Shown one piece after another: positions 4,282 to 22,889 of a DNA stretch of 35,815 bases. A program made the translations under genes and the position numbers. Numbering within the stretch: position 1 is the stretch's first letter; each line of letters opens with the position of its first letter. This stretch comes from a virus. The DNA lies in the IMG/VR virus record IMGVR_UViG_3300027917_000102, positions 1-35,815 of that record. One strand, written 5' to 3'. The notes below the pieces were generated by a model, which was given only the letters and a program-made list of their open reading frames with translations, was not told where the DNA came from and searched no databases.

Positions 4282-6789
4282 TTAAAAGAATGAGTTAAGT
4301 GATACTTTACGTTCTGTCTGCCACCCAATAGCGTCTAGAACTTTACGAAGTGGTTCAAGAAAAGACTTCTCGAACTGGGTCTTGTAGTCAACATACTTCT
4401 CAAGATTTAATTCTTTTGGAATCTCTTGGAAGAAAGCAATGACATTCTCCTTGATTGGGTTAGGAGTTTTAAGATAGATAAACTTGATCTTCTCGCCCTC
4501 TTGGATGAGCTGATACTTATTATCTAATTTGTTTTTCTTAATGTAGTGATTGTAAAGCAGGGCTCCTCTCACTTGGATAGGAACAGAAGCTTCTTTAGTG
4601 TATATTGTATGATGGTTTCCGTACTTTGTCAATCCGTTACACCCACGAGGGAAAGCAACGTTAGTATATTCTTGCTCTGTGGTTTCTTTCTTCACCTTCT
4701 TAATAAACGAGAAGATAGCATCGTTATCTTGAGTCAAGATAATGTCAAAGGCATCCTTAAGTTTATTACGGAAGAACTGAGGAGTGGATGAACGTTGGGT
4801 GTCCATACCACAGATCTTCATCTTTGGTTTATTGTAACGGACGCCTTCACTATCCCATACGTTGAGAACATAACGCTTCTTCGCTTTCCAGAATCCACGT
4901 TCAGCAATGTTCTCTCGCTTCATCTTCATCTTCTGGTCATACGCCGATACATAATCAGCAAGCTTCTGGTAACTGTTCTCGATAAACGGTTCCAACTTCT
5001 CCTGAGAGATCGTATCCAGAATGTTAACAATCTTGATCTTATCACCAGCAAGATGACTATAAAATTTATCAACAAGAGGTCCCAAATTAAGATAGATTGA
5101 ATCGGTGTCAGCGGCGATAACATAATCGACTTCCTCCGTTTGCAATATCTTATTTAGATATTGGTTAATATCATTTGCCACCCACTGGATAGAGAGTTGA
5201 CCGCCCAAGGTAATTGCCTCAGCAATGTCCAGGCGATAGTAACGGAAGTGTTCGTTACCGATAGCACCATAAGCAGAGTTTAGCTGAATCTTACGTGCCA
5301 TCTGAATGTTATTACATCGAGCAATCTCTTTCTTCAAAGCAGGGGTAGGAGTCTTCTCATACTGCTGCTTCGCTTCCAGCATCTTCTTTTTATAGATGGT
5401 CCGTTCGTTGTAGATCTTCTCCATCAGTTCGGGCAGGAACCCCCTGAAGGTAGTGTCATAGAACGTGCCGTTAGCACACACTGTCTGCCCCCGTAGGTCG
5501 CTCAGATCCAGTTCCTTGGACAGAAGACGGTCTACGTTAGCGGACGGGTGCTTGTGGGGCATAAGAGTCTCTGGCGAGATGTTGTACTGCATGATCAGGT
5601 GAGGGTACAGACTATTCAAGTCAAAATTCACCACCCAGTCATATAGACCAGGAACAGGTTCCTTCACATAGGCACCAGCATACTTCTCACTCTTAACAGC
5701 ACTTTCTTTCTTAGGAGGAATGACAATGTTCTGCTTAGAGAGGTAAACATAGATGATGTTATCCCACATACGAACCTGAGAATACACATCCTCAAAGTTG
5801 ACCTTGGCATCGTATGCCATGCTGACAGCAAGCTCTAGCAACTTCATCTTGTCATCCAACTGATCAACCAGTCGAACGTCATGGATGTTGTACTCGATAA
5901 ACTTCTGCCAGTTGTTGGTATAGAACTCCTTAAAAGTGTCATACTCACTGTGATCTAGTTTGTTGGCACCCAGTTCTACCTCACAGATATAGTCCAGACG
6001 ATAAGATGCCTGGTTGGTGTAGGTAAACTTCTTGTACAGTTCTAGGTAATCAAGCGTGGCAATACCAGAAATATCATAAGCAATCTCTTTCTTACCTTTA
6101 ATATAGATTTCACGACGGAGCACAGCTTTCCAGGGAGACAACATCCGTGCTTCTTTCTCCCCAAGGATACGTTCGATCCGATGAAGAATGTATGGCATAT
6201 CAAACAACTGGACGTTCCACCCAGTGATGATGTCAGGATAATCAGATGCCCACCAGTTAATGAAAGCTTTCAGCAATCCAACCTCGGTGTCAAAGTGCAT
6301 GTAAGTAACCCTAGGATCATCATTGTCAAATGGTTTGGCACCAAAAACAATGATGTTCCCAGAGGAACTATCTTTAATACTGATAGCAAGTATTTCCTGA
6401 TCAGCAGACTGAATATCAGGAAACCCATTCTCAGCAGCAGTCTCGATATCAATGTTGAACACACGGATATCTTTCATGTCATAGTCAATATAATCTTCAG
6501 AATACTCTCGGAGAATATATTGATTGATGAACCTAGTCTGTCCATATACAGGGAAGTCTTCTAGTTCCTTGTACTTGTCAATAAAATCCTTGGCATCACG
6601 AATACTTCCCATGGGGACAGAGCGTACAGGTTTACCATCCAGAGTCTTAGCTTCTACAGAAGCATTACCCGTGTCACCAACATACAAAACGGGGTTGAAC
6701 TTCACCTTGTCCGTAAACCTTTTACCGTGCTCTACACCCCGGACGAGGATGCTGTTGCCGGACTGTTGGACACTGGTGTAGAACTTCAT
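4282..6789 (-). CDS. 43: DNA polymerase, family B (gp43)
   Basis: Replicative polymerase with 3'-5' proofreading, 835 residues against 898 in T4. The exonuclease motifs are intact: Exo I has D114 and E116 in FNIDIET, Exo II has N192 and D197 in WNVQLFD, and Exo III has Y300 and D304 in YNIHD. The polymerase motifs are also intact: motif A DLNSLYP at 390-396, motif B KIQLNSAYG starting near 500, and motif C DTDS at 561-564. The C-terminus ends in SLNSFF, a hydrophobic tip consistent with a clamp-binding peptide that would dock on gp45. The ATG overlaps the stop of the upstream Sm-like gene by four bases, implying coupled translation. I see no intron or split. Confidence 0.97.
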   Translation of the reverse strand: MKFYTSVQQSGNSILVRGVEHGKRFTDKVKFNPVLYVGDTGNASVEAKTLDGKPVRSVPMGSIRDAKDFIDKYKELEDFPVYGQTRFINQYILREYSEDYIDYDMKDIRVFNIDIETAAENGFPDIQSADQEILAISIKDSSSGNIIVFGAKPFDNDDPRVTYMHFDTEVGLLKAFINWWASDYPDIITGWNVQLFDMPYILHRIERILGEKEARMLSPWKAVLRREIYIKGKKEIAYDISGIATLDYLELYKKFTYTNQASYRLDYICEVELGANKLDHSEYDTFKEFYTNNWQKFIEYNIHDVRLVDQLDDKMKLLELAVSMAYDAKVNFEDVYSQVRMWDNIIYVYLSKQNIVIPPKKESAVKSEKYAGAYVKEPVPGLYDWVVNFDLNSLYPHLIMQYNISPETLMPHKHPSANVDRLLSKELDLSDLRGQTVCANGTFYDTTFRGFLPELMEKIYNERTIYKKKMLEAKQQYEKTPTPALKKEIARCNNIQMARKIQLNSAYGAIGNEHFRYYRLDIAEAITLGGQLSIQWVANDINQYLNKILQTEEVDYVIAADTDSIYLNLGPLVDKFYSHLAGDKIKIVNILDTISQEKLEPFIENSYQKLADYVSAYDQKMKMKRENIAERGFWKAKKRYVLNVWDSEGVRYNKPKMKICGMDTQRSSTPQFFRNKLKDAFDIILTQDNDAIFSFIKKVKKETTEQEYTNVAFPRGCNGLTKYGNHHTIYTKEASVPIQVRGALLYNHYIKKNKLDNKYQLIQEGEKIKFIYLKTPNPIKENVIAFFQEIPKELNLEKYVDYKTQFEKSFLEPLRKVLDAIGWQTERKVSLNSFF
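4604..4632 (-). promoter_or_regulatory. Possible internal sigma70 promoter within gene 43
   Basis: On the minus strand TTGACA (4627-4632) is followed after exactly 17 bases by TACAAT (4604-4609), reading toward uvsX, gp41 and mazG. It lies inside gp43 coding sequence (residues GLTKYGNHHTIY), so chance or codon constraint cannot be excluded. Confidence 0.35.
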
Positions 6790-18424: not shown

Positions 18425-18684
18425 GTTAAATCTTCCGGTGGTATCAACAGGGTATCACCCGTTATTATAGCATACTTCTGATCTCTGTCTTCACAGGCAC
18501 CCAGAATGACATCAGCCTCAATCTCATAGACCTGCATCTCAGGGTAGTCTGGAATATCTTCAATCATCAAATAATATCTCTCAGCATCATCTTCGTTCTC
18601 AAACAGAGGAATGATGTGATCCCCAAAATCATCTAGGACGGAGAACACACCTTCTGGTTTATCTTTGAGAGTGAGGATATACAT
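18421..18684 (-). CDS. DUF3110-like small protein between gp47 and gp46
   Basis: This is an 87-residue acidic protein. The segment FENEDDAERYYLMIEDIPDY (about 28-47) followed by QVYEIEADVILGACE and a C-terminal LLIPPED matches the pattern I know from DUF3110, a family of cyanobacteria and chloroplast-bearing organisms with a characteristic F-E-x-E-D-D-A-x-R-Y helix. If correct, it is a host-type gene carried by the phage. It is fused tightly to both neighbours: its ATG overlaps the gp47 stop by one base and its stop overlaps the gp46 ATG. That location hints at a link to the gp46/47 nuclease, but no biochemical role is known to me. Confidence 0.78.
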   Translation of the reverse strand: MYILTLKDKPEGVFSVLDDFGDHIIPLFENEDDAERYYLMIEDIPDYPEMQVYEIEADVILGACEDRDQKYAIITGDTLLIPPEDLT

Positions 18685-19718: not shown

Positions 19719-19945
19719 AGTTTACCTCCAACAAATCCATCGTTAAGAACACGGCTTTCTTCCCATCCTTCCTGTAATCCTTTTAGATAAAATCTAGTCA
19801 TACGAATACATACATCTTTTGATAGTGCCGTGACTAACTCTTTACCTTCTTTGTTAGCACTGTGCCAAATCTTGAATCTAGTTTCATAAACATGAAAGGC
19901 ATCATCAATCCAATCTACTTCAGCAATTTCTGGATGTTCATTCAT
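19715..19945 (-). CDS. Conserved hypothetical between gp55 and gp47
   Basis: This 76-residue protein has an acidic N-terminus (EHPEIAEVDWIDDAFHVYET), a helix around KIWHSANKEGKELVTALSK and a second helix DVCIRMTRFYLKGLQEGW, ending in a glycine-rich tail. It has ATGA overlaps with gp55 upstream and gp47 downstream, so it is translated as part of the gp55 unit. I recall a small gene at this position in cyanomyoviruses without an assigned function. Confidence 0.75.
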   Translation of the reverse strand: MNEHPEIAEVDWIDDAFHVYETRFKIWHSANKEGKELVTALSKDVCIRMTRFYLKGLQEGWEESRVLNDGFVGGKL

Positions 19946-20433
19946 CGGTTCATCTTCGTCTCAATGTTTTCTTTAATGCTACCCATCTCAGAATAAGAAG
20001 CATTCATGCCTGCCATATCACCATCGTATGTATCTGTATGCATAACGTGTTCGTATCCAGAACGCTCAAGAACTTTGTTCTTAATTTCTTGCTGTTTGTT
20101 TTCTTTTTGAATACGGCGAAGAAAAGCGTAGTAAATAATTTGAGTGAAGTAAGCAAACGGGTTCTTTGATTTCTCGGGATTAAAGTTATTGATATACTGT
20201 ACACAGTTTTCAATACCGTCCGAGATCATGTCATCTCGATAAGTATAGTTTACAAAATTTGGTTTAAAGGATAACCTATTTGCAATTTTTAAAAAACACT
20301 CACCGATGTAGCGAGGAATGACAGGACGAGTTTTACCCTCTGCTTCTGCTTTCTCACACTTTTTCTTGTATACAATAAGAGCTTCTAAAAAGTCCTGATT
20401 ATTTACATAGTGTTCTGGATTTTTCTTGGTCAT
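19942..20433 (-). CDS. 55: Late-transcription sigma factor gp55
   Basis: Sigma70-family subunit that redirects host RNA polymerase to TATAAATA-type late promoters. It is 163 residues (185 in T4). Region 2 is recognisable: YTYRDDMISDGIENCVQYI followed by NNFNPEKSKNPFAYFTQIIYYAFLRRIQKE (about 65-115), the conserved core that binds polymerase and the -10 box. Region 4 is absent, as in T4 gp55, and the C-terminal tail is short. The gene has its own consensus sigma70 promoter 30 bases upstream, which fits its early or middle expression by unmodified host polymerase. It overlaps the 76-residue gene by four bases. Confidence 0.95.
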   Translation of the reverse strand: MTKKNPEHYVNNQDFLEALIVYKKKCEKAEAEGKTRPVIPRYIGECFLKIANRLSFKPNFVNYTYRDDMISDGIENCVQYINNFNPEKSKNPFAYFTQIIYYAFLRRIQKENKQQEIKNKVLERSGYEHVMHTDTYDGDMAGMNASYSEMGSIKENIETKMNR

Positions 20434-20462: not shown

Positions 20463-20491
20463 ATTATACATCTGTATCACGCTGTTGTCAA
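20463..20491 (-). promoter_or_regulatory. Consensus sigma70 promoter of gene 55
   Basis: On the minus strand TTGACA (20486-20491) is followed after exactly 17 bases by TATAAT (20463-20468): both boxes are perfect. It lies 30 bases upstream of the gp55 ATG. Confidence 0.85.
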
Positions 20492-20503
20492 GAGGGCTTG
20501 ACA
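20486..20503. repeat. Palindrome joining two divergent -35 boxes
   Basis: TGTCAAG (20486-20492) and CTTGACA (20497-20503) are perfect inverted repeats around AGGG. The arms hold the -35 boxes of the minus-strand and plus-strand promoters, so one dimeric protein bound here could block both. Confidence 0.65.
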
Positions 20504-20526
20504 GAACCTCAGAAACTAAGTACAAT
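20498..20526 (+). promoter_or_regulatory. Divergent plus-strand sigma70 promoter (antisense)
   Basis: TTGACA (20498-20503) is followed after 17 bases by TACAAT (20521-20526) on the plus strand. It points against all genes, into the 3' end of the Sm-like gene at 20560 and of uvsW. No coding frame of note lies downstream, so any product would be an antisense RNA. Confidence 0.6.
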
Positions 20527-20559
20527 GACTCTGTTAAGGGTTGAAAGACATATAGGCTC

Positions 20560-20952
20560 TTAGCTTTTCTTATAGATATTCTCTAAGAAGTTCTTTGCTT
20601 CTTTTACAGAACCTAAGTATCCCATTCTCTTGGAGAACTTTTCTGGTTTGATATCAATAGTTTCAGGATCTTCATTCAAACCATTCACGTAAAAGTTTTT
20701 GATCTCATCATCTAGTTCGGACATTGTAATGATCTGTTCCCTAGGGATAACAAACATGTCATCGTATGTAGATGTAATCCATTCTTTTAAGATGAACCCA
20801 GAAACTTGTTTGCCTTTCTTTTTCTGTACCATCTTCTCTACTAGCATAGGATTATGCAATAGTACAGAATCTTCTTCTGGCAAGAAACATACTTTAGCTA
20901 CTAATTCTTCACCCGACGTTAATTTAATAGTTGAATAAAATTCTTCTTCCAT
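20560..20952 (-). CDS. Sm-like small protein after uvsW
   Basis: This 130-residue protein begins with the family strand YSTIKLTSGEELVAKV, then VLLHNPMLVEKM with the N-P pair, a third strand after a basic loop (QKKKGKQVSGFILKEWI) and a last strand FVIPREQIITMSELDDEIKNFY that turns into a helix. A C-terminal helical extension of about 45 residues (ending VKEAKNFLENIYKKS) is specific to this member. Its ATG follows the uvsW stop directly, so it is read with uvsY and uvsW. It is the last gene before the promoter pair that starts the gp55 unit. The Sm-like fold is inferred from the pattern shared with four other proteins in this window. Confidence 0.8.
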   Translation of the reverse strand: MEEEFYSTIKLTSGEELVAKVCFLPEEDSVLLHNPMLVEKMVQKKKGKQVSGFILKEWITSTYDDMFVIPREQIITMSELDDEIKNFYVNGLNEDPETIDIKPEKFSKRMGYLGSVKEAKNFLENIYKKS

Positions 20953-22413
20953 TTACCTTAGATCTACTTTAATTATTTCATATTTAAAGTTCTCTTCTTT
21001 GTAGATTTCTGTTCTCTTTTTAAGATGAAGTAGAGTGTAATTTTTTCTATGCTCAGAAGAGATGTCATCAGCGATATCATAAAGTGTAGCAATATCTTTA
21101 CCTTCTCCTTTTCTCAGCACTCTGCCGATGGACTGTAAGTTTCTAATTCTAGATTTAGAGGGAGAAGCAAAAATAATATTATGAAGTCTTTTGATGTTAA
21201 TACCTGTAGAGAACGTTCCGTATGAAGCGACAATAACAGCGTTATCTTCCTGCTCTGTCAGCTGTCTAACAATTTCTCTTTCCTCAATATCAGTAGAACC
21301 GCTAACAAAAAATACTTTACGGTTCTGACCTACAGAGTTATTTATTAATTCGTAAAGTGGTTGCCCATGTTTCTCTACAAAGTTAAACAACACAAGAGTG
21401 TTGCCATCTAAATCACTAACTAAATTTTTAATCAGGTTATTTCTTTTCTTGTGTTGTACAATGTATTCCATCTCTTCATGGTAGTCTTCAAATGGAATGT
21501 GATCATGTTTACACAACAACACTTTGATACGCAGATTAGATAAGTAACCTTTCTTGATAAGGTCATCTGTTTTAGTTACTTTCTCACAGGCACCAAACAA
21601 TCCTTCTAGTACCCACTTATGTGTCTTGGTTCCGTCTAAAGTTCCTGTAAATCCAAACCTATAGGTAGCATTGTGACACTTCTCCATGATACCAGTCAAT
21701 GACTTAGACTTGAACAAGTGAGCTTCGTCACCAATCACAACATCAAAGTCATCAAAATATCTTTTAGGAAATTTATAAACAGACTGCCACGTAGAAACAA
21801 TCACAGACTTGTTACTGTTCTTATCTTGTCCACCATAGATCTTGTGGATGTCATCTGTGTCCCATCCATAATCATGGAAGTCTTTTACAATTTGTTCCAC
21901 TAGAGATGTAGTTGGAACAACAATAAAGATCTTTTTATTCTGAGCGTGGTAGTATCTGACAAGAGAATAAATCATCAAAGACTTACCAGATCCAGTAGGT
22001 GACAGAAACAATCCACGGTTGTACTTCAAAGCTCTGTAGACAGTGTAATACTGATAGTCTCTTGCTTTTATATTAGAAATTTTATCTACAAAATCTTTAA
22101 CTCCCTGAGGTGACACAAAATCATTGGTGTCGTCTGGTTGTCCATACCACTTGTTCTCTACAATTTCAACACGGTTTCCCTTTTGATCACACCACTCTTT
22201 TAGTTGATTCCACAGACCTACATAGAGCGCTCCAGTTGCAGGAGAGTAGAGACGAATCGTGCCGTCCCAGTATCTGTACCTAGGATTCTTTTTTAAGAAT
22301 TTTGCTTCTGGTACTTCAAAAGTAAAGTAGTCAGATAACTCTTGGTGGACATGAGGTTCTGCCTGAATAGTCAAGAACACTTCATTCTTTTTTTGTACAA
22401 CCAGTCTATCCAT
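20953..22413 (-). CDS. uvsW: Helicase UvsW (RecG-like superfamily 2)
   Basis: ATP-driven helicase that branch-migrates and unwinds R-loops and stalled forks, switching T4 from origin to recombination-dependent replication. It is 486 residues. Walker A is PTGSGKS at 139-145, DEAH at 229-232, motif III FGFTGTLDGT follows, and motif VI is QSIGRVLRKGEGK near the C-terminus. The N-terminal 110 residues form the substrate-binding domain. It starts on the uvsY stop (one-base overlap), so recombination mediator and helicase are coupled. Confidence 0.95.
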   Translation of the reverse strand: MDRLVVQKKNEVFLTIQAEPHVHQELSDYFTFEVPEAKFLKKNPRYRYWDGTIRLYSPATGALYVGLWNQLKEWCDQKGNRVEIVENKWYGQPDDTNDFVSPQGVKDFVDKISNIKARDYQYYTVYRALKYNRGLFLSPTGSGKSLMIYSLVRYYHAQNKKIFIVVPTTSLVEQIVKDFHDYGWDTDDIHKIYGGQDKNSNKSVIVSTWQSVYKFPKRYFDDFDVVIGDEAHLFKSKSLTGIMEKCHNATYRFGFTGTLDGTKTHKWVLEGLFGACEKVTKTDDLIKKGYLSNLRIKVLLCKHDHIPFEDYHEEMEYIVQHKKRNNLIKNLVSDLDGNTLVLFNFVEKHGQPLYELINNSVGQNRKVFFVSGSTDIEEREIVRQLTEQEDNAVIVASYGTFSTGINIKRLHNIIFASPSKSRIRNLQSIGRVLRKGEGKDIATLYDIADDISSEHRKNYTLLHLKKRTEIYKEENFKYEIIKVDLR

Positions 22414-22889
22414 TAGGTTACACCATTAATAAATTTCTCCCAGTCAATAGCAGATTTAATTTGAAATCCTCTATTGCTAATTTGTTTCATTACACTATCG
22501 ACATAGTATAAAACTTGATCGACATATGCTATCTTTGCTTCTAGATCGATGATGTCCTTATCTGACTCTAGATAAGCTTTCATCTTCTCTGCTGTTTTGA
22601 TGCTAGTGCCAAAAGGTTTCTCGGCATACACTTTAGCGTCTGCTTCTCCCCCGTAGTATTCTCTCTTATCTCTAAGCAACTGTCTAAGTTGAAACTGAAA
22701 AGCAGTTTTTGCTTGTGATAGATCGGAGTAGTAATTTAAATACTTATTGTGTTGATACGGAATCTCTAGAGCTATCCTTCCTAGATCTTCTGTATACTCT
22801 TTGTTTTTAAATTGAAAATCAATGTGTGAATCTTTTTTCCACTCTTCTTTAATTGTCTCAAATAGCGTAATAATGTGGGATAGGTTCAT
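22413..22889 (-). CDS. uvsY: Recombination mediator UvsY
   Basis: Single-stranded DNA-binding protein that loads UvsX onto gp32-coated DNA. It is 158 residues (137 in T4). The recognisable core is the basic helix KTAFQFQLRQLLRDKREYYG, then the GGEADAK loop (T4 has a similar YYSGRGDG) and the C-terminal SNRGFQIKSAIDWEKFI, like the GFAIK region of T4 UvsY. The ATG overlaps the gp3 stop by four bases. It links the virion block to the recombination block. Confidence 0.9.
   Translation of the reverse strand: MNLSHIITLFETIKEEWKKDSHIDFQFKNKEYTEDLGRIALEIPYQHNKYLNYYSDLSQAKTAFQFQLRQLLRDKREYYGGEADAKVYAEKPFGTSIKTAEKMKAYLESDKDIIDLEAKIAYVDQVLYYVDSVMKQISNRGFQIKSAIDWEKFINGVT

Follow-up and report, generated by a model that had tools for sequence, protein, structure and literature searches.

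A conserved antisense promoter with a start-site palindrome, predicted beside the late sigma factor gene of Kyanoviridae phages

Why would a phage keep a near-consensus promoter that has no apparent gene to serve, and keep it next to, and facing away from, the promoter that drives its late sigma factor gene? The question is raised by a window of 35,815 nucleotides, by which we mean the whole stretch of viral DNA analysed here. Judged by its relatives, the window is part (35.8 kb) of the genome of a marine T4-like phage in the Kyanoviridae. Combining the window with related loci and complete genomes provided a tentative answer, in which the orphan promoter would be a regulated one.

The promoter pair and its conservation

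The late sigma factor gene, gp55 (19942-20433, minus strand), is served by a promoter at 20463-20491 on the minus strand (-35 TTGACA at 20491-20486, 17-bp spacer, -10 TATAAT at 20468-20463). It matches the consensus at 12 of 12 positions, and 29 bp separate the end of its -10 box from the gp55 start codon. A second promoter, predicted at 20498-20526 on the plus strand (-35 TTGACA at 20498-20503, 17-bp spacer, -10 TACAAT at 20521-20526), matches at 11 of 12 positions and is of the host sigma-70 type, in which a spacer of 16-18 bp separates a TTGACA box from a TATAAT-like one. Its transcript is expected to start at about 20533, 7 nt past the -10 box. The first-pass annotation of this DNA had described the two as facing away from each other, and both were found as it placed them. 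The entire window contains four TTGACA-17-TAYAAT sites. Near-perfect sites of this form on the minus strand at 1982-2010 and 4604-4632 lack the palindrome that follows the plus promoter. In 3000 first-order Markov simulations of the window, the mean number of sites per window was 0.37 for at least 11 matches of 12 and 0.015 for 12 of 12, and a divergent pair this good, with a gap of -20 to +30, appeared in one simulated window. Together with the conservation in relatives described below, the simulation rules out a pair arisen by chance.

No plus-strand gene was apparent to the right of the plus promoter among the window's open reading frames. Since the recognisable genes around the pair all lie on the minus strand, with long plus-strand reading frames sitting opposite minus-strand ones, the plus promoter appears to serve no gene. 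The first gene opposite its predicted transcript is an Sm-like gene (20560-20952, minus strand; PF16243; phrog_471, annotated 'methylamine utilization'), followed, if the transcript reaches that far, by the uvsW helicase gene (20953-22413, minus strand). Next in the opposed operon is a probable uvsY (22413-22889, minus strand), an open reading frame identified by comparing gene order and length with Syn9. The earlier proposals of a rightward promoter without a gene and of an RNA antisense to the Sm-like gene and uvsW are thus borne out, the latter for the predicted RNA and by gene orientation. The Sm-like protein beside gp55 is one member of a family that is represented by several paralogues in each of 11 complete Kyanoviridae genomes.

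The plus promoter is nearly invariant among relatives. A first set of loci was gathered by searching with gp55 and the Sm-like protein, without use of the promoter, and gave 126 distinct upstream regions. In 125 of them (the exception is L045) TTGACA followed by TANNNT stands at the antisense position, with a spacer of 17 bp that is 16 bp once. A wider collection, found partly by searching with the element itself, comprised 177 distinct loci, many of them metagenome fragments; there the plus -35 box is TTGACA in 174 loci and the spacer 17 bp in 176. The gp55 promoter is looser, its -35 box being TTGACA in 93, TTTACA in 38 and TTGTCA in 29 of 171 loci. The first-pass annotation had named a plus-strand -10 box not kept in close relatives as part of what would refute its reading, and the box is kept. 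This near invariance of both boxes and their spacing supports selection on the plus promoter. By sequence comparison, nearly all Kyanoviridae ocean phages have a predicted antisense promoter back to back with the gp55 promoter. In two loci (L109 and L113) the whole element is repeated in tandem about 95 bp downstream of the gp55 antisense promoter.

HTVC008M, a Pelagibacter (SAR11) phage classed in the Kyanoviridae, also has the element: a single exact match to the pattern occurs in its genome, and it sits at the antisense position beside gp55. Outside the family, the element was not found at this position in RB51, where the best match is 8 of 12, or in the Sinorhizobium phage phiM7 (L302), where only a poor match with TTTACG is present. 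phiM7 keeps helicase, small gene, gp55 and gp47 in this order, with an extra small minus-strand gene in between.

The -35 boxes of the window form a palindrome of their own, TGTCAAG-AGGG-CTTGACA (20486-20503), which the first-pass annotation regarded as a possible repressor target. The sequence is present as described; as a conserved unit it does not hold. The gap between the -35 boxes ranges from -16 to +24 across 171 loci, with a mode of 5-7 bp (94 loci); it is -7, with overlapping boxes, in 27 loci and -16 in four, so that in some clades the boxes overlap or interleave. Because the gap varies, the -35/-35 palindrome is best seen as an incidental by-product of facing TTGACA boxes, and we rejected it as the operator. 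Promoters this close hinder each other. With footprint size taken from general knowledge, the two promoter footprints overlap at nearly all cyanophage loci. Mutual exclusion would not be universal, since about 57 bp lie between the two promoters in HTVC008M.

A palindrome over the predicted start site

Directly behind the plus promoter, an imperfect palindrome, GACTCTGTTAAGGGTT (20527-20542, plus strand), covers the predicted start and may be the operator of a phage-encoded factor. Its layout is conserved: AACnnTGT directly follows the plus -10 box, then come 1-3 bases and an arm with a GTT end. Given a start 7 nt past the -10 box, its centre lies near +1. The arms covary, with the pairs AACAG/CTGTT, AACTG/CAGTT, AACCG/CGGTT, AACCT/AGGTT, AACTT/AAGTT, AACTC/GAGTT and ATGAG/CTCAT among relatives and AGGC-ATGT-GCCT in HTVC008M. 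The commonest arm form, AACTC/GGGTT, is imperfect, and at least four of five arm positions pair in 62 of 84 distinct elements. Arm complementarity exceeded the permutation expectation (p ~0.001, the limit of the test; p 0.013 with a cruder parse); relatedness among the sequences inflates the significance of permutation tests. On this comparison, the conserved unit is the start-site palindrome at 20527-20542, and not the -35/-35 palindrome. Its phage-specific sequence, along with a conservation stricter than that of the gp55 promoter, makes the plus promoter look like a control point.

Scans of 11 complete Kyanoviridae genomes revealed one to four copies of the element per genome well above noise. 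All 11 have the gp55 copy, and the scans of P-SSM2 and Sf-CH1b revealed no other. Extra copies precede a gene of about 70 amino acids (phrog_718; gp88 in Syn9) in six genomes and lie upstream of CpeT in S-PM2, S-H25, S-RIM2 and S-RIM12. Copies in one genome tend to have the same arm: AACAC three times in S-H25, AACCA three times in S-RIM2, AACAA twice in ACG-2014d and AGCCT twice in S-CAM7. Among 17 extra copies, 13 have exactly the arm of the gp55 copy, where 2.4 would be expected (p <= 1e-5); one copy in S-RIM12 and the copy at gp55 in ACG-2014f depart from this, differing in arm from their sibling copies. All four ACG-2014f copies (KJ019098; 40794, 152641 and 211497 on the plus strand, 110652 on the minus strand) have TTGCCA instead of TTGACA as the -35 box. 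Plain duplication does not explain the arm match, because the spacers are unlike between copies of one genome and because S-RIM2, S-RIM12 and S-H25 carry different arms at the same extra sites. Since the arms differ from phage to phage yet remain complementary and reappear at sibling copies, a phage-encoded trans-acting factor is likely, and such a factor reading the palindrome is probably the simplest cause of the match. The earlier suggestion of a regulator target at this locus therefore stands in part: a phage-specific regulator of the plus promoter is likely from the arm sharing, but its target would not be the palindrome between the -35 boxes. The genome scans revealed no convincing palindrome sites away from promoters.

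A lead to this factor is an AbrB/MazE-like protein (PF04014) of about 55-65 amino acids, which is encoded in all 11 complete genomes (for example S-H25 49395-49568, P-SSM2 69222-69413 and, in Syn9, gp92). In each of the six genomes that have the phrog_718 copy, its gene sits in the operon behind that copy, 0.7-1.3 kb away and on the same strand; in the other five of the 11, it is not behind an element. Two other candidates were set aside. The phrog_718 protein is missing from several genomes; an HTH-like family was not found in DSL-LC02, and ACG-2014a and S-RIM12 have its HTH segment in common but differ in palindrome arm. Syn9 (NC_008296) also has a TTGACA-17-TATAAT promoter at 18628-18656 on the plus strand, whose spacer holds the perfect palindrome CACCCTG-GA-CAGGGTG; this promoter sits before gp21 and the Phd-like antitoxin gene gp22.

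Alternative roles for the antisense promoter

Could the plus promoter be without function, arising from the symmetry of promoter DNA? Two TTGACA boxes that face each other already make a palindrome, and functionless divergent firing is known in bacteria. Near invariance throughout the family, the SAR11 phage included, that exceeds that of the gp55 promoter while the distance between the two promoters varies makes this very improbable. A rather unlikely reading is that the palindrome binds an activator, or a phage protein attached to host polymerase, the whole being an early promoter element like, or identical to, that of Syn9. The gp55 copy would then be an early antisense promoter with no repressible switch. 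The Syn9 transcriptome reportedly revealed a novel early-gene regulatory element along with host-like middle promoters; other copies of the present element do precede small genes, and in Syn9 a copy lies inside a cluster of short open reading frames. The copies are nevertheless few for a general early promoter (two in Syn9, one in P-SSM2), others precede CpeT and structural-gene neighbourhoods, and near-consensus boxes should need no activator.

The surroundings of the promoter invite comparison with replication origins. A gene-less promoter, present at least once per genome and adjoining uvsW and uvsY, could act as the R-loop origin oriF (ori(uvsY)) does in T4, its transcript priming DNA synthesis and UvsW later removing the R-loop. 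In T4, both oriF and oriG require an AT-rich unwinding element in addition to a middle promoter (PMC3016281). The present locus resembles them in having a promoter near uvsY and uvsW that may act without coding; it differs in that the T4 origins depend on MotA and on the unwinding element, whereas neither skew nor AT content gives support here. No extremum of cumulative skew falls at the gp55 locus (some T4 origins lie at one, not all), and the downstream sequence is only mildly AT-rich (47th-95th genome percentile, median near the 69th, in 11 genomes). As the extra copies moreover precede coding genes, we give an origin a small probability. A small structured RNA with the palindrome as its 5' hairpin seems similarly improbable. 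The loop length varies by 1-2 bases, and T-G arm mismatches would pair as U-G in a plus-strand RNA, both as expected of a hairpin; the wobble count gives no decision, because A-G is the commonest mismatch. The expected start, however, lies inside the palindrome, so the 5' arm would stay untranscribed. In addition, no Rfam family matched and the sequence past the element is poorly conserved.

A possible switch in lytic phages

The best explanation, to which we give slightly less than an even chance, is that the plus unit is a regulated sigma-70/SigA promoter with a palindromic operator, mutually exclusive with the gp55 promoter and antisense to the Sm-like gene, uvsW and uvsY. A near-consensus promoter is usable by unmodified host polymerase, and a palindrome over +1 suits a repressor. 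In this proposed mechanism, selection would keep the plus promoter, with its operator palindrome over the start site, throughout the Kyanoviridae. A phage-encoded DNA-binding factor, its specificity drifting from phage to phage, would read the palindrome here and at the sibling copies. Early in infection the factor-free plus promoter would be occupied by host RNA polymerase. In most phages both promoters lie within one polymerase footprint, and this occupancy would keep polymerase off the gp55 promoter while antisense transcription is sent into the Sm-like gene, uvsW and uvsY. As the factor accumulates and binds, the plus promoter would be shut and gp55 relieved. We infer from the DNA the firing of the plus promoter, its early timing, repression rather than activation, and the effect on gp55 and uvsW.

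Overlapping divergent promoters form the switches of temperate phages, as lambda PR/PRM and P2/186 Pe/Pc. The present locus would share with them opposed, mutually exclusive promoters and a phage-specific operator, the exclusion being proposed here. The temperate switches have genes to drive on either side and decide on lysogeny, whereas here one side is gene-less and the phages are lytic T4 relatives. The early element of Syn9 is likewise Kyanoviridae regulatory DNA read by host polymerase and may be the same element; that the 2016 Syn9 transcriptome already described ours is possible, though we lean against it. The antisense RNA CfrI of cyanophage S-PM2 maps to psbA and a gene for a homing endonuclease (PMC2984593, PMC5931967). 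Antisense transcription in a cyanomyovirus, which for CfrI has no assigned function, would be common to both; the transcript at gp55 and uvsW is predicted only. A literature search, outside whose scope Doron et al. 2016 (ISME J 10:1437-1455) lay, found no published report of an antisense start at gp55.

In marine T4-like phages, which have neither MotA nor AsiA, how the early and middle stages are controlled has been called unclear (PMC2984593, PMC5780444). A gene-less promoter conserved more strictly than the late sigma promoter, with a co-evolving palindrome and one to four sites in each genome, offers a concrete candidate for what exerts this control, and the arms common to the copies offer a way to find the regulator. 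It is a doubtful prospect that the family has a lytic switch, in which a fast-evolving regulator would act on a gene-less promoter that blocks the late sigma promoter and runs antisense to the recombination operon, and would so time the passage into late infection without MotA and AsiA.
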